Shown: positions 1 through 9,581 of the stretch, one piece after another
Numbering within the stretch: position 1 is the stretch's first letter
Layout: the number at the start of each line of letters is the position of its first letter
Origin: Mesorhizobium sp. Pch-S
Lineage (GTDB): Bacteria; Pseudomonadota; Alphaproteobacteria; Rhizobiales; Rhizobiaceae
Length of the DNA: 64,000 bases
Assembly: GCF_004136315.1 (NCBI RefSeq)
Contig: NZ_CP029562.1
Span: 1,984,001 to 2,048,000, forward strand
Direction: 5' to 3'
The notes under the pieces: generated by a model
Databases searched by the model: none
Seen by the model: the letters and a program-made list of their open reading frames with translations, nothing else
What the model was told of the DNA's origin: nothing
Program-made: the position numbers and the translations under genes

Positions 1-223
1 GGCGACGATGCAGGAATGGCGCAAGCTCAAGGCGTTGAACCCTGGGGCAAAGCTGGTCTGCATCGACATCCAGCCCTACACCACGGTGCAGGCCAAGCCG
101 GAAGCCGACATCCTGAATGTCGGCGGGTTCTCCGACCGGGTCTTCGAGGTGGTCGGGACAATGCTCTCCTCGAAGGGCGATCCGGACCATTGGGTCCGCC
201 ATATCGAGGCGACCGAACTTTAA
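1..223 (+). CDS. rsr: Ro60/Rsr-type (TROVE/VWA) RNA-binding protein, C-terminal end
   Basis: Only the last 73 or so residues are in the window; the frame is open to the left edge and ends at TAA 221-223. The segment (NPGAKLVCIDIQPYTT, later ADILNVGGFSDRVFEVV) looks like the last strand and helix of the VWA-like domain that closes Ro60 proteins, where a similar '...AKL... D... LDMCGFDTGALDVI' tail is found. Ro60 proteins are rings that bind Y RNAs and the 3' ends of misfolded RNAs; bacterial Rsr can tether a Y RNA to a 3' exonuclease. The call is strongly supported by what follows: a Y-RNA-like array and then rtcB, the same neighbours as in enterobacterial rsr-yrlBA-rtcBA. The N-terminal HEAT-repeat ring lies outside the window and cannot be checked. 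Confidence 0.8.
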   Translation, partial: ATMQEWRKLKALNPGAKLVCIDIQPYTTVQAKPEADILNVGGFSDRVFEVVGTMLSSKGDPDHWVRHIEATEL

Positions 224-241
224 AGGAAACGCTCCAACGAC

Positions 242-268
242 GATCCCGGCGGATGACCCGCCGGGATC
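242..268. repeat. perfect 11-bp hairpin after rsr
   Basis: GATCCCGGCGG (242-252), loop ATGAC, then CCGCCGGGATC (258-268) form a perfect 11-bp stem 18 bases after the rsr stop codon. No T-run follows, so it is unlikely to be a simple intrinsic terminator; it may be an RNA-processing or mRNA-end-stabilising hairpin between the rsr message and the Y-RNA-like array. Confidence 0.6.
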
Positions 269-290
269 AATGAACGGAGATATCGAGAAA

Positions 291-447
291 GGCATGACGA
301 ATGCCGATGGAACTACAGGCTGTTACCCTCCAGGTCGCGGGTTCGAATCCCGCCGGATCCACCAGACACGGGTCCGTAGCTCAGTGGTTAGAGCAGGTGC
401 CGATCCGAACGGACCGGCGACGTTTCATCATTCTTGTCGTCATGACC
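291..447 (+). ncRNA. Y-RNA-like (YrlA-type) unit 1, permuted tRNA-like module
   Basis: The ends pair as a Ro-type stem: GG CATGACGA (291-300) with TCGTCATG (437-444), a single bulged A (445) and CC (446-447). The 5' strand carries CGAATGC (298-304) and the 3' strand CTTGTCG (433-439), resembling the CCGAGUGC/CUUGAC Ro site of animal Y RNAs. The core GGAACTACAGG is at 309-319. A tRNA-like module follows in permuted order: T-arm GCGGG-TTCGAAT-CCCGC (337-353), acceptor 3' strand CGGATCC (354-360), then ACCA, then acceptor 5' strand GGGTCCG (370-376; 7 bp with one U-G pair), then D-arm GCTC-AGTGGTTA-GAGC (379-394). The order fits YrlA RNAs, whose Ro stem replaces the anticodon stem. Read from the sequence; transcription is inferred. 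Confidence 0.85.
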
Positions 448-469
448 CTCGAGTTTTGAAAGGCCTGGA

Positions 470-598
470 AAGACGCGGCGAATGCCGGACGGAACTACAG
501 CACTCATCGGGCAATCCGCGAGGTTCGACTCCTCGCCTTGCAGGCGCTCTCTGGCACGAGCGGGATCCCGGAGTTTCGTCCATCCTTGTCGCCGCGGC
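470..598 (+). ncRNA. Y-RNA-like (YrlA-type) unit 2
   Basis: Closing stem GCGGCGA (475-481) with TCGCCGC (589-595), with conserved CGAATGC (479-485) on the 5' side and CTTGTCG (585-591) on the 3' side. The core GGAACTACAG is at 491-500. T-arm CGAGG-TTCGACT-CCTCG (519-535) has a canonical 7-base T-loop. The acceptor stem has shrunk to a short GCCT-TGC-AGGC hairpin (535-545). D-arm GCTC-TCTGGCAC-GAGC (546-561) keeps the GG pair in the loop. The order is again T-arm, acceptor, D-arm, that is, a tRNA permuted at the anticodon. Confidence 0.8.
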
Positions 599-607
599 AA
601 CAAATAT

Positions 608-734
608 CCGGCGAATGCTGGCAGGACTACAGGTAGCGCGCCCGTCGCAAGACGGGAGGTCGGATGTTCAAATCATCCCTTCGCCTTCGGGCGGAGTGGC
701 GCAGCAGAAACGGTCTTGCCGATCTCGTCGCCGG
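608..734 (+). ncRNA. Y-RNA-like (YrlA-type) unit 3, UUCG-capped acceptor
   Basis: Closing stem CCGGCGA (608-614) with TCGCCGG (728-734); CGAATGC at 612-618 and a CTCGTCG variant at 724-730. Core GGACTACAG at 624-632. It has an extra arm not seen in unit 1: CCCGTC-GCAA-GACGGG (641-656), a GNRA-capped hairpin. T-arm GGATG-TTCAAAT-CATCC (662-678) is followed directly by a perfect 7-pair acceptor-like stem CTTCGCC-TTCG-GGCGGAG (679-696) closed by a UUCG tetraloop, so the tRNA 5' and 3' ends are joined. A degenerate D-like segment (GTGGCGCAGC) follows. Confidence 0.82.
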
Positions 735-735
735 T

Positions 736-867
736 GCGGCGAATGCCTGCGGGACTACAGGGATAGAGCGCCTGCCTTGAGAAAGGCGGGAGGTCGGGTG
801 TTCAATCCACCCCTTTCCGGATCCTCCGAAAAGTAGCTCAGTACCGTCTCGCAAATCTTGTCGCCGT
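736..867 (+). ncRNA. Y-RNA-like (YrlA-type) unit 4
   Basis: Closing stem GCGGCGA (736-742) with TCGCCGT (861-867); CGAATGC at 740-746 and CTTGTCG at 858-864. Core GGGACTACAG at 751-760. Extra arm CCTGCCTT-GAGA-AAGGCGGG (771-790), GNRA-capped like that of unit 3. T-arm GGGTG-TTCAATC-CACCC (796-812). Acceptor-like stem CTTTCCGGA with TCCGAAAAG (813-833), nine positions with one mismatch and a 3-base loop. GTAGCTCAGTA (833-843) is a D-arm remnant. It begins one base after unit 3 ends, so the units are tightly packed. Confidence 0.8.
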
Positions 868-874
868 ATTCGCG

Positions 875-971
875 GGGAAGACGAATGAATGCAGGACTAC
901 ATTGGGATTGGCGGTTCGAATCCGCCCGGCGGCTTCCGCCGAATTGTCCTGCAGTGACTTGTCGCCTTCCC
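875..971 (+). ncRNA. Y-RNA-like (YrlA-type) unit 5, minimal
   Basis: The shortest unit, 97 bases. Closing stem GGGAAG (875-880) with CTTCCC (966-971), then an A-C mismatch, then CGA (882-884) with TCG (962-964); CTTGTCG is at 958-964. Core GGACTACA at 894-901. T-arm GGCGG-TTCGAAT-CCGCC (910-926) runs straight into an acceptor-like hairpin CGGCGG-CTT-CCGCCG (927-941). The D-arm is nearly lost. It shows that the T-arm, acceptor, Ro stem and GGACTACA core are the parts that are kept. Confidence 0.75.
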
Positions 972-1217
972 GGCCGAATGGCGGATGCAGGCCAGACTCG
1001 CGCATGACCCCGAAAATCGGAACCGATTTTCGGAAAGGATCATGCGCCAAATCAAAGTGTTAGAGCGTCCTTTGCGCATCCAAGTGGACGCGCGGCGCTC
1101 TAAGGTAGACGCGACCTGCGCAGGCAGGTGTCGAAAGACGTGAAGGTTCGTGTCCTTCCTTCGCACCAGTTGCGAAGTGGCGGAACAAGTCTTGCCGATC
1201 CTGGCCGCTATTCGGCC
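970..1217 (+). ncRNA. Y-RNA-like unit 6, interrupted by a palindromic repeat
   Basis: The left part (970-999) has CCGGCCGAATGG and a core-like GGCCAGACT. The right part (1103-1217) starts AGGTAG and continues with extra arm ACCTGC-GCAG-GCAGGT (about 1114-1129), T-arm GAAGG-TTCGTGT-CCTTC (1142-1158), a perfect 7-bp acceptor stem CTTCGCA-CCAGT-TGCGAAG (1159-1177) and a tail GTGGCGGAACAAGTCTTGCCG that resembles the end of unit 3. GGCCGAAT (972-979) can pair with ATTCGGCC (1210-1217) as the closing stem. A repeat of about 103 bases (1000-1102) sits where GGACTACAG should be. Without it the unit matches units 3 and 4 in order. It is probably a disabled or split copy. Confidence 0.65.
1000..1102. 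repeat. composite rhizobial palindromic repeat inside Y unit 6
   Basis: The left half is GCGCATGACC, then CCGAAAATCGG-AA-CCGATTTTCGG, then GGATCATGCGC, a nested palindrome. A second segment (about 1050-1102) contains AGAGCG...CGCTCTA. The same CGAAAATCGGAACCGATTTTCG core recurs at 14342-14383. These are non-coding palindromic elements that rhizobial genomes carry in many copies. Confidence 0.75.
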
Positions 1218-1245
1218 ATTGTGATCGATTGAAGGGAATGAGGTT

Positions 1246-2634
1246 ATGGTAGACGTATTGAGTGGACAGGATCTGATCGACGCCGGGCTGGCCCAGGGCA
1301 AGTGGTTTGGCAAAGCGCTGACTGCTGCCAATGCCGTGCTCGAACGCGGCGGCTCGATGGACGAGGCGATGCAGGTGGCGCAGGGCTTCGCGCCGCCGCC
1401 GGTGGCGGCCCTGCATCCTGCCGGTTCGGTGCCTTTCCATGTGAACATCGAAGCGGAAACGCCCGAGGAAGCCGCCAATGTCGAGGCGGTGAGCAGGAGC
1501 ATGACGGAGCTGATGCGCACGCCTGTCATCAAGGCCGGCGCGATCATGCCCGATGCGTGCCCTGCCGGCCCATCCGGCACGATCCCGGTCGGTGGCGTGG
1601 CGATCTCCGAGGCCATCCACCCCGGCATGCATTCGGCCGACATCTGCTGCTCGATGGCGATCTCGACCTTTCCGGGGGTAGCGCCAGCCGCGCTGCTCGA
1701 TGCCGTCCACGCCGTGACGCATTTTGGTCCGGGCGGGCGGCCGCGTGGCCAGCAGGTACGGCCGCCGAAGGATGTTGCCGAGCGCATCGACGCCAACCCG
1801 TTGCTGCGAGACATCATGAGCGCCGCGATCGAGCATTTCGGCACACAGGGAGACGGCAACCATTTCGCCTTCGTCGGCACGATCAGGTCGACGGGAGAAA
1901 CGGCGCTCGTGACCCATCATGGATCGCGAGCGCCGGGCGCCAGGCTCTACAGCAAGGGCATGAAGATCGCCGAGGGCTATCGCAAGCAGCTCTCGCCCGA
2001 GACGCTGCCCCAGAACGCCTGGATCCCGGCTGACACAAGCGAGGGCGAGGATTATTGGGAAGCCCTGCAGACGATCCGCGCCTGGACGAAGGCCAACCAC
2101 GAGCTGATCCATGACATGGCGGCCGAACGTCTGTCGGCCAAGGTCGCGGACCGGTTCTGGAACGAGCACAACTTCGTCTTCAGGCGTTCCGACGGGCTGT
2201 TCTACCACGGCAAGGGTGCGACGCCGGCCTTCGACAACTGGGCCGATGACGCGACGGAGCTGACGCTGATTCCGCTCAACATGGCGGAGCCGGTGCTGAT
2301 CGCCCGCGGAAAGAACGCGCCGAACGGGCTGGGCTTCTCGCCACACGGTGCCGGGCGCAACTTCTCGCGCACCCAGCACCGCAGGCAGAAGGCGGGACGG
2401 ACGAACGAAGAGATCTTCGCTGAAGAGACCAAGGGCATCGATGCCCGCTTCTTCTGCGGCGTGACCGACATCTCCGAACTGCCCAGCGCCTACAAGAACG
2501 CTGCGGCGGTCCGCCGGCAGATCGAACAGTACGATCTCGCCGAGATCGTCGACGAGGTGCTACCCTATGGCTGCATCATGGCCGGTGACTGGGAAGCCGA
2601 CGCGCCCTGGCGCAGGAAGAAGCAGCGTTCGTAG
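1246..2634 (+). CDS. rtcB: RNA-splicing ligase RtcB family protein
   Basis: 462 aa. RtcB joins RNA 2',3'-cyclic phosphate or 3'-phosphate ends to 5'-OH ends using GTP and Mn2+. Metal and guanylate motifs are visible in order: ADICCSMA (131-138, Asp and Cys ligands), GTQGDGNHFAFVG (199-211), HHGSRA (224-229), YHGKGATP (320-327) and SPHGAGRNFSR (365-375, the His expected to take GMP). Length is typical of the shorter RtcB forms (E. coli 408, archaeal about 480). It starts 28 bases after the Y-RNA-like array and lies on the same strand as rsr, so rsr, the RNAs and rtcB probably form one transcription unit. No rtcA follows, unlike the enterobacterial locus. The ATG at 1246 has a weak purine-rich site (GAATGAGG) upstream. 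Confidence 0.93.
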   Translation: MVDVLSGQDLIDAGLAQGKWFGKALTAANAVLERGGSMDEAMQVAQGFAPPPVAALHPAGSVPFHVNIEAETPEEAANVEAVSRSMTELMRTPVIKAGAIMPDACPAGPSGTIPVGGVAISEAIHPGMHSADICCSMAISTFPGVAPAALLDAVHAVTHFGPGGRPRGQQVRPPKDVAERIDANPLLRDIMSAAIEHFGTQGDGNHFAFVGTIRSTGETALVTHHGSRAPGARLYSKGMKIAEGYRKQLSPETLPQNAWIPADTSEGEDYWEALQTIRAWTKANHELIHDMAAERLSAKVADRFWNEHNFVFRRSDGLFYHGKGATPAFDNWADDATELTLIPLNMAEPVLIARGKNAPNGLGFSPHGAGRNFSRTQHRRQKAGRTNEEIFAEETKGIDARFFCGVTDISELPSAYKNAAAVRRQIEQYDLAEIVDEVLPYGCIMAGDWEADAPWRRKKQRS

Positions 2635-2651: not shown

Positions 2652-2790
2652 ACGGTGTCCGGTGAATGCCCGCGGAACTAAAGGGATGGAGCGCCTGCCG
2701 TGCTCGGACTCGGCGGCTCCATGGATGAGGCGAGCAGGTGGCGCGGGGCTTCGCGCCACCGCCGGCGGTTGCCCTGCATCCTGTCGGCGC
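2652..2790 (+). pseudogene. chimeric remnant: Y-RNA 5' half fused to an rtcB fragment
   Basis: Bases 2656-2696 (GGTGAATGCC, GCGGAACTAAAGGGAT, GGAGCGCCT) closely match the first part of Y unit 4 (737-772). At about 2697 the match switches to the inside of rtcB: GCCGTGCTCG...GGCGGCTC..ATGGA.GAGGCG...CAGGTGGCGC (2697-2745) and on to CTGCATCCTG (2775-2784) follow rtcB 1333-1420 with roughly a dozen substitutions and a 2-base loss that breaks the frame. No start or useful frame remains. It is a decayed duplication of the array/rtcB junction, lying between rtcB and the convergent peptidase gene. Confidence 0.75.
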
Positions 2791-6355: not shown

Positions 6356-8587
6356 TCATCGGCTCAGTGTCAGATAGAGTTTCGGTAGAAGGTCGGTCAG
6401 CCGCTCGACCGCCGCGATGGTTATGGCGTTGCGCTGGCCGAAGATGCGGCCGAGATAGGAGTCGGCGTTCGAATCCAGGCCGACGCAGAACGTGTCGATG
6501 CCGAAACGATTGAGATGGTGTACCGCCTTGCGGGCATCCTCGACCAGATACTGGCGGTCCTCGACGTCGATGTCCGACGGCTCGCCGTCGGTGACGACGA
6601 GCAGCAGGCGGCGGTAGCTGCGCTCGCGGGCAAGGTCGGCGCCGGCATGGCGCATGGCGGCGCCGATGCGGGTGGAGAGCCCGCTCTCCAGGCCATCCAG
6701 CCGGGCATCGACAAGATCGTCGTAGCCACGGTCGAAATCCTTGATGCGAACGTAACGCACGTCGTCGCGCTTGTCAGAGCAGAAGGCGGCGATGGCGAAG
6801 GGATCGCCCAGTCCGGCCATAGCCCTGGCCAGCAGGGCCGCCGACTGGCGCTCGACATCGAGCACCGTACGCGTCGAGCCACGCATCTTCTCGGCGGTCG
6901 ACTGCGAGATGTCGAGCAGCAGCAGCACCGACAGGTCGCGGCTGCGCCGCTCATAGCGGCCATGGATGCGGTGATCGGCGGCCTCGCCGATGCGGCGGGC
7001 GACCGTCGCCTCGATGCAGGCGTCGATGTCGAGGAACTCGCCTTCCGGCTGGCGACGCAGGCGTTCGGCGCGGCTGACACGGGCGGAGCGGATCAGCGCC
7101 GCCACCCGCGCGACGAGATCGGCATGCTCTTCGACAAGCCGCGCCGCCGGACCATTGGCGACGGCTTTCGGCGCGTATTCCTTGACCGAGGTCCATTCGG
7201 GCTGCTCGCGGGCGGCGACATAGTCGTATTCGGGATAGCGAGCGACGAGCACGCCGTCCTGCGCCTGCTCGATCACCTCGACGCGCCCGCCGGTATCGCC
7301 CATCTCGGTTTCGGTGCGATCGGGCGGACGGCTGTCGTCCTGCTCTTGCCGGATACGCGCCGAAGACAGCACCTGTTCGGCCTCCGACGATTGCTGCTGG
7401 TCGTCGTCGCCGAAATCCCAGAGGCCGAGATTGTCGTCGCGGTAGGGCGGCTGCACGACATAGTTCTTCGGGTCGAACTGCACGCGCATCTGGCCCAGAT
7501 CGTTGCCGAGCAAATCGCCGATGCGGCGGCTGATCTGCTGGCTGCCCCAGTCCGCTTCGGCCTCGAAGAAGGCACGACGGCCCTTCTGAACCCAGGGGTC
7601 GGGATCGTCATAGGCCGGATCGGCGAGCGCCCGCGCCAGCCGCGCGAACAGGCCGGGCGCAGTGGCGGTGCCGGATGCTTCCGCCACATGGAAGGGTGTG
7701 AACAGGCGACGCAGCCCCGGAAGCTCGCGCATCGCCAGTTGCTCGACCCTGGCGTCTTCGATCAGCGACACCAGCGCGATCTGGGCCGGTTTCAGCCCGC
7801 CGACCGGAAAGCGTTCACGCGAGAACTTCAAGTGGGCGCCGATATGGGCGACGGCGGCACGGTAGAGCTTCTCGCTGTCGCTGCCCGAAAAGCCCGGATA
7901 GGCGGCGGGCAGCCTGACGACGCTGCCGTCGAAGCCCGGCCGTCGCCTGGCCTGCTCCGGCGCATTGGCCGGCGTCTCGCGCATCGGTGGCGTCTCGCCC
8001 CAGAGGGCGGCCAGATAAGGTTTCAGCCGCGCTTCGAGGTCGAGGAAACCGACCTCGCCGCTTTCGCGCAGCAGCCAGCGCCGTGCATTGGGGTCTTCCA
8101 GCGTGAAGAAACGCAGGCGCCGCTCCGGCTCGCCATTGTTCGAGCGCAGGCCGATCCTGATCCAGGAGGCCAGCGCGCGCACGTCGAGGCGCGCGGTCAG
8201 GCTGGCGGTCTGATCGAGCAGGGCGCCGGCCGATTCCGGCGCCTGATCGCCGACCTGTTCGATGAGCCGCAACCATTCCTGCAGCGAGGCCGCATCGGTA
8301 TAGCGTTTTGCCGCAACGATCGCCGCGGCCGGTGCCAGCGACGCCGCCCGACGGCCGGCCCGGATCGCCAGGCCCGACACAATCGCGGCCAGCGCGATCG
8401 CCGCCTGCGGCGAGGCGAGGCGTGCGAGTTCGGGCGAGTGCCGCAGATAGCTGTCGGTGACGACATCGCCGTAACCGGCGCCGACGAGACGGCGGCAGAC
8501 ATCACCCCAGGATTGGTAGAGATCGCCCGGGAAGGCGGATCGGATGGCCTCGTCCGACTGCATGATCGTCTTCTGCTCAGCGATCAT
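6356..8587 (-). CDS. CbbO/NorD-type VWA-domain activase partner
   Basis: 743 aa. NorD/CbbO proteins pair with a MoxR-type AAA ATPase (NorQ/CbbQ) to remodel or activate an enzyme: nitric oxide reductase in denitrifiers, Rubisco in chemoautotrophs. The C-terminal VWA domain has a MIDAS motif LLLLDISQST at about residue 560 (DxSxS), then VTDGEPSDID and a closing Arg-rich segment. The long N-terminal part is helical, with a P-G-rich linker. It starts 5 bases after the AAA gene and is in an operon with amiE, so the amidase or the importer is its likely client here rather than NOR or Rubisco, for which no genes are seen. This is inference. Confidence 0.85.
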   Translation of the reverse strand: MIAEQKTIMQSDEAIRSAFPGDLYQSWGDVCRRLVGAGYGDVVTDSYLRHSPELARLASPQAAIALAAIVSGLAIRAGRRAASLAPAAAIVAAKRYTDAASLQEWLRLIEQVGDQAPESAGALLDQTASLTARLDVRALASWIRIGLRSNNGEPERRLRFFTLEDPNARRWLLRESGEVGFLDLEARLKPYLAALWGETPPMRETPANAPEQARRRPGFDGSVVRLPAAYPGFSGSDSEKLYRAAVAHIGAHLKFSRERFPVGGLKPAQIALVSLIEDARVEQLAMRELPGLRRLFTPFHVAEASGTATAPGLFARLARALADPAYDDPDPWVQKGRRAFFEAEADWGSQQISRRIGDLLGNDLGQMRVQFDPKNYVVQPPYRDDNLGLWDFGDDDQQQSSEAEQVLSSARIRQEQDDSRPPDRTETEMGDTGGRVEVIEQAQDGVLVARYPEYDYVAAREQPEWTSVKEYAPKAVANGPAARLVEEHADLVARVAALIRSARVSRAERLRRQPEGEFLDIDACIEATVARRIGEAADHRIHGRYERRSRDLSVLLLLDISQSTAEKMRGSTRTVLDVERQSAALLARAMAGLGDPFAIAAFCSDKRDDVRYVRIKDFDRGYDDLVDARLDGLESGLSTRIGAAMRHAGADLARERSYRRLLLVVTDGEPSDIDVEDRQYLVEDARKAVHHLNRFGIDTFCVGLDSNADSYLGRIFGQRNAITIAAVERLTDLLPKLYLTLSR

Positions 8588-8592
8588 CGCCG

Positions 8593-9426
8593 TCAGAGGC
8601 AGGCCGCGATTGCAGCGGTGAGGGCGTCGCGCATGTCGGCATCGTCGGTGATCGGTAGCACCAGCGCCACCTCGCAGGCCTGGTCGAGCGCGATGCCGCC
8701 GGCGACGAGCTGGCCGGCATTGATCAGCATGCGCGTCGAAGCACCCTCCTCCAGCCCGTGGCCTTTCAGATTGCGCGAGCGCTGCGCGATGCGCACCAGC
8801 GTTTCGGCGACAGGCCGGTTCACGCCGGCTTCCGAGGCCACGATCTCCGCCTCGATCGCAGCGTCAGGATAGGTGAAGGCAATCGCCGCGAAACGCTGCT
8901 TGGTCGATTCCTTCAGGTCCTTGAGCACGCTCTGGTAGCCGGGGTTGTAGGAGATGACGAGCTGGAAATCGGGATGCGCCTTCAAGACCTCGTTCTTCTT
9001 TTCCAGCGGCAGGATGCGGCGGTCGTCGGTCAGCGAGTGGATGACGACGGTGGTGTCCTGTCTGGCCTCGACGATCTCGTCGAGGTAGCAGATGGCGCCG
9101 GAGCGCACGGCTAAAGTCAGCGGGCCGTCATGCCAGACGGTGCCGTCGGCATCGAGCAGATAGCGCCCGACGAGGTCGGACGCGGTCATGTCCTCATGAC
9201 AGGAAACGGTGACCAGCGGGCGCTTGAGCCGCCAGGCCATGTGTTCGACGAAACGCGTCTTGCCGCAGCCGGTCGGCCCCTTGAGCATGACAGGCATGCG
9301 CGCGCCATAGGCGGCCTGGAACAGCGCGACCTCGTGCCCGACGGAGCGGTAATAGGGTTCCCGGTCGATCCTGAAATCGTCGAGTGCAGGATCGTGAGCC
9401 GATTTGGCGCCGCTGGTGCTGTGCAT
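8593..9426 (-). CDS. CbbQ/NirQ/NorQ-type MoxR AAA+ ATPase
   Basis: 277 aa from the ATG at 9426 (GAGG upstream). Walker A GPTGCGKT is at residues 50-57, Walker B AICYLDEI at about 110-117, and a sensor-1 region [12 protein letters not shown] at about 155-166. It resembles CbbQ/NorQ ATPases, which form hexamers and work with the VWA protein encoded next. The gene sits directly after amiE. Pseudomonas amidase operons also contain an AAA+ gene (amiB) beside amiE, so an amidase-assembly role has precedent, though AmiB is not known to belong to this exact subfamily. Confidence 0.9.
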
Positions 9427-9581
9427 TTCCAACCTCGATGCGAATGCTGTTCAATTTCTCACCCACGTTCTTCCCTCGAAGAGACGCCGGATGAGCCGCC
9501 ATGGAGAGTGCTCTGAGAAGATTCGACGCCAAAACGTGCCGCGGCCCCTCGCCTGCCGCGACACGCCAGTGGCCGCGCCGT

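Follow-up and report, generated by a model that had tools for sequence, protein, structure and literature searches.

A row of Y-RNA-like units with predicted tRNA-like heads in at least two circular permutations between rsr and rtcB of Mesorhizobium sp. Pch-S

In the bacterial Y RNAs studied so far, one part is a stem bound by the Ro60 homologue Rsr; the other is a tRNA-like head, which PNPase binds and which serves DusA and TruB as a substrate (PMC8394870, PMC6181284). YrlA is already known to be a circularly permuted tRNA (PMC11472068), an operon with two Y RNAs has been described (PMC9879122), and the Salmonella RNA-repair operon is activated by RtcR in response to tRNA fragments (PMC7790460). 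tRNA genes opened in the D-loop are known as rare tRNA genes of algae (PMC3978253). The present study concerns the interval between rsr and rtcB in a 64,000-nucleotide stretch of Mesorhizobium sp. Pch-S (contig NZ_CP029562.1, positions 1,984,001 to 2,048,000; hereafter the window). This interval holds a row of Y-RNA-like units, which confirms the observation behind the original prediction for this DNA, and the interpretation offered there, an expanded system that could give one Ro protein several tRNA-like adaptors, is supported. At least two circular permutations of tRNA are predicted among the heads of the units, and one of them is unlike the YrlA layout. In 2014 Chen reportedly described Y RNAs close to Ro60 in numerous bacteria, some of which have more than one.

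The locus resembles the Salmonella rsr-yrlBA-rtcBA locus with its RtcR in having a divergent rtcR, rsr, Y RNAs and rtcB (PMC9879122, PMC7790460). It differs in having six units compared to two, and in that the cyclase RtcA was not found: PF01137 gave 0 matches in the Pch-S genome, the same search being positive in the E. coli control. YrlA itself (RF02553; Salmonella YrlA structure 6CU1) likewise combines a Y stem with a permuted tRNA-like head, its gene lies beside rsr, and its layout is that of unit 1 of the array. The units that appear to be opened in the D-loop are unlike YrlA, as their anticodon arm is kept and the two strands of their D stem flank the head. The same two permutation points are found in the type I and type II permuted tRNA genes of Cyanidioschyzon merolae (PMC3978253); those genes, however, are processed to tRNAs, whereas here the junction holds a Ro-type stem, and the anticodon loop is in many cases non-canonical. 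In Deinococcus RYPER (Rsr-Y RNA-PNPase) a Y RNA tethers the Ro ring to another protein (PMC6181284, PMC4726728); tethering of this kind is a possibility for the present array, which has several different heads. No Y RNA opened in the D-loop was found in the literature searched, which consisted of partial texts and lacked the main bacterial Y RNA papers and reviews. The novelty of this layout is thus probable, but not established.

Predicted folds of the units

The array spans window positions 294 to 1208 (Table 1), and its start lies at about 294 rather than at 224, as had been proposed. Six units are indeed present in the interval; five are intact, while the sixth has been broken up by an interspersed repeat. 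The motifs by which they had been recognised recur as described: CGAATG on the 5' side at 298, 479, 612, 740 and 882, the core GGAACTACA at 309 and 491 or GGACTACA at 624, 752 and 894, and CTTGTCG on the 3' side at 433, 585, 857 and 958, with CTCGTCG at 724. In unit 6 the 5' motif is CGGATGC at 982, rather than the CGAATG at 975.

The closing stem is common to the units here and in related loci. Among 298 units recognised with a covariance model (R1) in loci of the genus, family and order, CGAATGC was found on the 5' side in 249 and TTGTCG on the 3' side in 187, and ACTACA stood ahead of the head in 259. The near-constant Y stem, putatively of the Ro-binding type, is composed of an outer part (CGAATGC ... 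CTTGTCG) and an inner stem of about 8 bp. Both parts were seen in folds and alignments of six of the seven unit types distinguished in the genus (t1 to t7); the consensus fold of t1 has the outer stem only, and the single fold of unit 1 has the outer and the inner stem.

When t4 (20 relatives), t6 and t7 were each folded alone with RNAalifold, the same succession of elements was obtained: Y stem, first D strand, anticodon arm, T arm, acceptor hairpin, second D strand and the closing strands of the Y stem. Only t7 has an extra variable arm between the anticodon arm and the T arm (14 of 16 sequences aligned, without L005, which is disrupted, and L025, which has a long insert). This predicted fold is that of a tRNA opened in the D-loop, with the Y stem entering via the D-loop. 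The claim that the stems are kept while the sequence changes was borne out by compensatory changes among the relatives of these three types: changes on both sides that keep the pair were found in 5 of the 37 predicted pairs of t4, 16 of 38 in t6 and 6 of 34 in t7. The observed number of compensated cells was reached in 0 of 500 shuffles for each type, t7 being counted with the RNAalifold pairs and a hand-set outer stem, although such shuffle figures, here and below, are for related sequences not probabilities, as the tool itself warns. Shifting the partner by one to three columns lowered the share of paired cells from 98-100 % to 36-63 %. One D-stem pair is compensated between t4 and t6, being C-G in 10 and A-U in 14 sequences. 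The joint alignment of these two types comprised 24 of the 40 sequences, and its acceptor stem is misaligned and hence unpaired in model R1.

The remaining types gave other folds. The t1 consensus, based on 16 of 20 sequences (the longer L009, L011, L019 and L022 were left out), has a T arm, an acceptor hairpin and a D arm, as in YrlA. In the t2 consensus a T arm and an acceptor hairpin were obtained, with 9 of 25 pairs compensated; it lacks the D arm because two sequence forms occupy the t2 place, and the D arm does appear in single folds and in ARAGORN, by which 18 t2 units were called anticodon-opened. A T arm and a D-arm-like hairpin, with both-side changes in 4 of 27 predicted pairs, were predicted for t3 (unit 2; 18 of the 20 genus units and 4 others), and a T arm with a partial acceptor hairpin, with both-side changes in 7 of 21 pairs, for t5 (unit 5; 19 of 20 and 3 others).

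No linear tRNA gene was called by ARAGORN in the window. When ARAGORN was run on the unit heads after circularisation and trimming, with dinucleotide shuffles as the control, a tRNA-like structure was called for unit 1 in 509 of 676 trims, for unit 3 in 132 of 523, for unit 4 in 128 of 621 and for unit 6 (1100-1192, after the repeat) in 47 of 523, while 0 of 200 shuffles were called for each of these units. None of the 445 trims of the unit 2 circle gave a call. Unit 5 was too short for this analysis. Applied to all 298 units, the same procedure called 91 anticodon-opened (junction offset 26-50), 71 D-loop-opened (offset 12-23) and 17 of other offsets ('other'), and left 119 without a call; with one shuffle per unit 0 of 298 were called. 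Among the loci with units, at least one D-loop-opened unit was present in 21 of 21 in the genus, 12 of 23 in the family and 5 of 22 in the order. The original prediction spoke of copies of diverging form. The units do differ, but not by mere divergence, given the two or more permutations that their heads appear to represent.

The two kinds of head also differ in their loops. By counts that come from related sequences and not from independent events, CCA opens the acceptor loop, preceded by no more than two bases, in 53 of the 82 anticodon-opened units with a recognised acceptor hairpin (genus 23/33, family 15/24, order 15/25), compared to 2 of 55 D-loop-opened units with CCA in this loop; a GNRA tetraloop closes the anticodon arm in 13 of 20 t4 and 12 of 20 t6 units and in 0 of 14 t7 units. 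The anticodon-arm loop of t7 is 4 to 22 bases long, and in 50 of the 71 D-loop-opened units the anticodon loop is not of 7 nt but of 6 or 8 nt. Based on the CCA and GNRA counts, the anticodon-opened kind would often keep the tRNA 3' end, its anticodon arm having yielded to the Y stem, and the D-loop-opened kind would keep both arms, mostly capped.

In tRNA order, unit 6 is closest to the tRNA-Leu(TAG) of the same genome (78 % over 81 positions), and the five Leu isoacceptors top the ranking of 42 tRNA sequences. The nine t7 units called by ARAGORN likewise all had Leu as their nearest isotype, the margin being 26 or more. Isotype mimicry by every unit was considered and rejected except for t7, as the nearest isotypes were mixed for the other types. 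A score margin of at least 20 was seen in 14 of 162 units, 10 of these being Leu.

The search with the Rfam YrlA model (RF02553, curated gathering threshold 69 bits), which the original prediction had proposed as a check, matched four units, all of them under the cut-off: unit 1 (294-446) with 50.4 bits (E 1.9e-9), unit 5 (878-971) with 48.6 bits, unit 4 (736-870) with 31.7 bits and unit 2 (475-598) with 20.5 bits, the last at chance level (E 0.84). Units 3 and 6 gave no match up to E 1. When the whole Pch-S genome was searched, 0 of 1 matches reached the cut-off. Matches below the cut-off also occurred in 7 of 14 control genomes, and since they are this common in controls, the case for the units was not built on them. 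The YrlA order of T arm, acceptor hairpin and D arm within the Y stem is found in unit 1 (t1) only, while the elements of units 3, 4 and 6 follow another order in the RNAalifold predictions.

Conservation of the array

A gene for Rsr was found in 21 of 146 genomes of the genus, Pch-S included. In all 21 loci rtcB follows rsr after a gap of 761-1225 bp, and the comparison of the same interval in related genomes, as originally suggested, recovered orthologous units in each. By profile searches these gaps contain 135 units of the seven types, five to seven per genome, and in L010 and L015, for example, all seven are present in the order t1 to t7. Type t1 was found in 20 of the 21 loci (one relabelled), t3 to t6 each in 20 and t7 in 16. 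The Pch-S array is composed of t1, t3, t4, t6, t5 and a broken t7, and t2 is absent. The expanded multi-copy system that had been claimed is thus real in that several units are present, but it is not peculiar to Pch-S, as its relatives carry arrays too. The order t4-t6-t5 is shared by Pch-S and L006, while t4-t5-t6 is found in the other genus loci with all three, and this difference indicates that units have been reshuffled. At the t2 place two forms of head occur in different relatives (L007:1136-1258 and L013:3304-3426 compared to L010:3351-3476), and in one of them the D-arm sequence looks serine-tRNA-like by eye.

Matches to rsr were obtained in 27 of 394 genomes of the family (two of them weak) and in 31 of 397 of the order (some weak or partial). 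Among the loci inspected, RtcB was encoded within 1.5 kb downstream in 20 of 23 in the family and in 13 of 22 in the order. Model R1, which misses the broken unit 6 of Pch-S, gave 127 units for the 21 loci of the genus (5-7 per locus), 99 for 23 loci of the family (2-7) and 72 for the order (1-6), where 22 of 24 loci had any; this census leaves out L049, L050 and L075, where the rsr match is weak.

Unit clusters beside rsr and a distant RtcB homologue (about 27 % identical) were also found farther afield: L152 belongs to another order of the class, and L153 and L154 lie beyond the class altogether. A Leu-like D-loop-opened unit seems, by eye, to be present outside the class as well (L153:2861-2999), its ARAGORN trims falling mostly into the 'other' group. 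In two anticodon-opened units, L153:3018-3143 and L154:2641-2765, the 5' part has a CTTTTAA-like stretch that by eye is similar to a lysine anticodon loop, and these units resemble, by the same inspection, a cut tRNA read as though from its anticodon loop. The use of R1 as a phylum-wide detector was tried and given up: 156 of 398 genomes matched, but weak matches can be ordinary tRNAs, and this tally does not serve as a census. In Pch-S, for instance, R1 matched 4163070-4163184, where a tRNA match lies at 4163109-4163182. Three R1 clusters among the phylum matches were inspected (G936, G1087 and G1074).

Layout of the locus

Table 1. Features of the rsr-rtcB region. Positions are those of the window unless prefixed; L004 is a stretch of the Pch-S genome that reaches upstream of the window start, in which rsr and rtcR were read.
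Feature	Position	Strand	Description
tRNA-Arg(CCG) gene	L004:4626-4702 (G000:C1:1980626-1980702)		outside the window
rsr, 3' end	1..223	+	TROVE/Ro60 homologue, 524 aa; full gene L004:6649-8223
Unit 1 (type t1)	294..446	+	Y stem and predicted anticodon-opened permuted tRNA head (YrlA layout), ACCA in acceptor loop
Unit 2 (type t3)	475..598	+	predicted Y stem, T arm, D-arm-like hairpin
Unit 3 (type t4)	608..733	+	Y stem and predicted D-loop-opened permuted tRNA head; GCAA caps the anticodon arm
Unit 4 (type t6)	736..866	+	Y stem and predicted D-loop-opened permuted tRNA head
Unit 5 (type t5)	878..971	+	short; predicted Y stem, T arm, acceptor-like hairpin, without D arm
Unit 6 (type t7), split	~980..1208	+	predicted D-loop-opened Leu-tRNA-like head with variable arm
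Interspersed repeat inside unit 6	999..1102	+	matches elsewhere in the same genome
rtcB, RNA ligase	1246..2634	+	PF01139 119.5 bits, cut-off 27
Remnant, 5' half of unit 4 fused to rtcB fragment	2657..2787	+	blastn

The gene upstream of the array was predicted to encode a TROVE-domain protein, and its product scored above the cut-offs of both Pfam models, with 28 bits for PF05731 (TROVE, cut-off 23) and 70.3 bits for PF25045 (Ro60 vWA, cut-off 27.7). The NCBIfam equivalog model NF041674 gave 81.2 bits over residues 15-500 and its cut-off of 900 was missed, and the product is therefore named a Ro60 homologue by Pfam and not as the NCBI equivalog. The rtcR gene lies upstream of rsr in divergent orientation (NF038308 822 bits, cut-off 650; PF06956 258.9 bits), and the tRNA-Arg(CCG) gene that adjoins its 3' end is an ordinary one. 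The NCBIfam RtcB models hit the rtcB product only under their cut-offs. Downstream of the array a gene for a vWA protein is paired with one for a CbbQ/NorQ-type AAA protein (6356-9432, minus strand).

In 19 of 66 loci a sigma-54-type pattern was found no more than 260 bases upstream of rsr, 15 of these having it at -49 to -52; of 264 control stretches drawn from rsr itself, 0 contained it. The Pch-S genome misses the strict pattern, TGGCACGCAACTTGGA at -49 before rsr (manual count) being one base off.

The repeat splits unit 6 after base 998, and a query of 996-1102 had 47 matches in the Pch-S genome. In L006, the nearest rsr-bearing relative (Rsr 97 % identical), unit 6 is unbroken, as comparison of both sequences revealed. 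The Brucella small RNA family BASRCI27 of Rfam gave a weak match below its cut-off at 991-1146, overlapping this repeat, and the family may in part be an interspersed repeat of the same kind. On the 3' side of rtcB, positions 2657-2702 are 85 % identical to 734-779 (46 positions) and positions 2696-2787 are 88 % identical to rtcB at 1332-1424 (93 positions). This is the remnant of a second stretch of unit 4 and rtcB, joined over a deletion, and it shows that duplication and partial loss have affected the array.

Possible roles of the array

On balance we favour the view that the interval belongs to an RNA-repair operon of the RtcR type and forms its Y RNA array, in which a common Ro-type stem carries interchangeable tRNA-like heads in two permutations. 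This view draws on the stems, predicted folds, covariation, conservation and gene order, all read from the DNA; the units would be expressed, bound by Rsr and functional. By analogy with Salmonella, the operon would be made when tRNAs are cleaved. A single Rsr ring could then hold one of several Y RNAs via the common stem, and the heads would show to their partners different faces of a non-decoding tRNA. One face would have Rsr in place of the anticodon arm and often keep CCA, and the other would have Rsr at the elbow and both arm ends capped. Different tRNA-binding enzymes could be recruited or blocked by the heads in this way, for example PNPase, nucleases or enzymes that modify tRNA.

Several observations count against this proposal. 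It depends on expression and Rsr binding that are predicted, and the putative adaptor role is argued from other species. The YrlA cut-off was not reached, 50.4 bits being the best score, and the units are not filed as members of RF02553. For 119 of the 298 units ARAGORN made no call. Covariation is also uneven, with both-side changes in just 2 of 30 pairs of the t1 fold and a D stem that hardly varies within a type and gives no covariation support there. When covariation was measured by further pair types, 378 of 500 shuffles equalled the observed value for t4 and 354 of 500 for t7, compared to 1 of 500 for t6. Finally, the broken unit 6 and the missing t2 indicate that not every unit is indispensable.

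The heads could instead serve as decoys or competitive inhibitors that occupy tRNA-cleaving or tRNA-binding enzymes during damage, several heads for several enzymes, with Rsr merely stabilising them. An operon of a type turned on by tRNA fragments would suit such a role, as would the Leu-like head, and the Salmonella authors propose that uncut YrlA could competitively inhibit an anticodon nuclease (PMC7790460). The D-loop-opened units, however, mostly have no normal anticodon loop (50 of 71 not of 7 nt), which speaks against mimicry of an anticodon-nuclease site; a steady isotype is seen in t7 only, and the best conserved part is the Ro-type stem rather than the head. We find a decoy role doubtful. 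A more far-reaching idea, which at present strikes us as rather improbable, is that the units of the array imitate nicked tRNA in topologically different ways and that Rsr swaps them, so routing differently damaged tRNAs or the enzymes that hold them to ligation by RtcB or decay by PNPase. The break mimicked by the anticodon-opened units would then lie in the region of the anticodon, the CCA end being often retained, and that mimicked by the D-loop-opened units, one of them Leu-like, in the D-loop, both arm ends being capped. On this idea the D-loop-opened Y RNAs would form a second structural class beside YrlA.

It is very unlikely that unit 1 is a single working YrlA-type RNA accompanied by decaying tandem duplicates. 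The disruption of unit 6, the further fragment at 2657-2787, the absence of t2 and the varying number of units among relatives would all fit decay, but 20 of the 21 loci of the genus retain any given one of the types t3 to t6, and 16 retain t7, compensatory changes have accumulated in t4, t6 and t7, and each unit type has a distinct conserved fold, which is not expected of random decay. That the units are circularly permuted tRNA genes processed to working tRNAs is hardly credible. The junctions in the D-loop and the anticodon loop do correspond to the algal types I and II (PMC3978253), 53 of the 82 anticodon-opened units have CCA at the start of the acceptor loop, and unit 6 is 78 % identical to the tRNA-Leu(TAG) of the genome; against this, 50 of 71 anticodon loops of D-loop-opened units are of 6 or 8 nt and often GNRA-capped, just 2 of 55 of their acceptor loops have CCA, the units lie within a long Y stem beside rsr, and the genome has 43 ordinary tRNA matches.

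The Rfam YrlA model seems to miss the D-loop-opened layout as a whole, and the number of bacterial Y RNAs may therefore be underestimated at present. The finding bears on the open question of why tRNA-mimicking Y RNAs are kept beside an RNA-repair ligase. With a natural and conserved series of heads on one stem, in what appear to be two permutations, this array would make that question directly testable.

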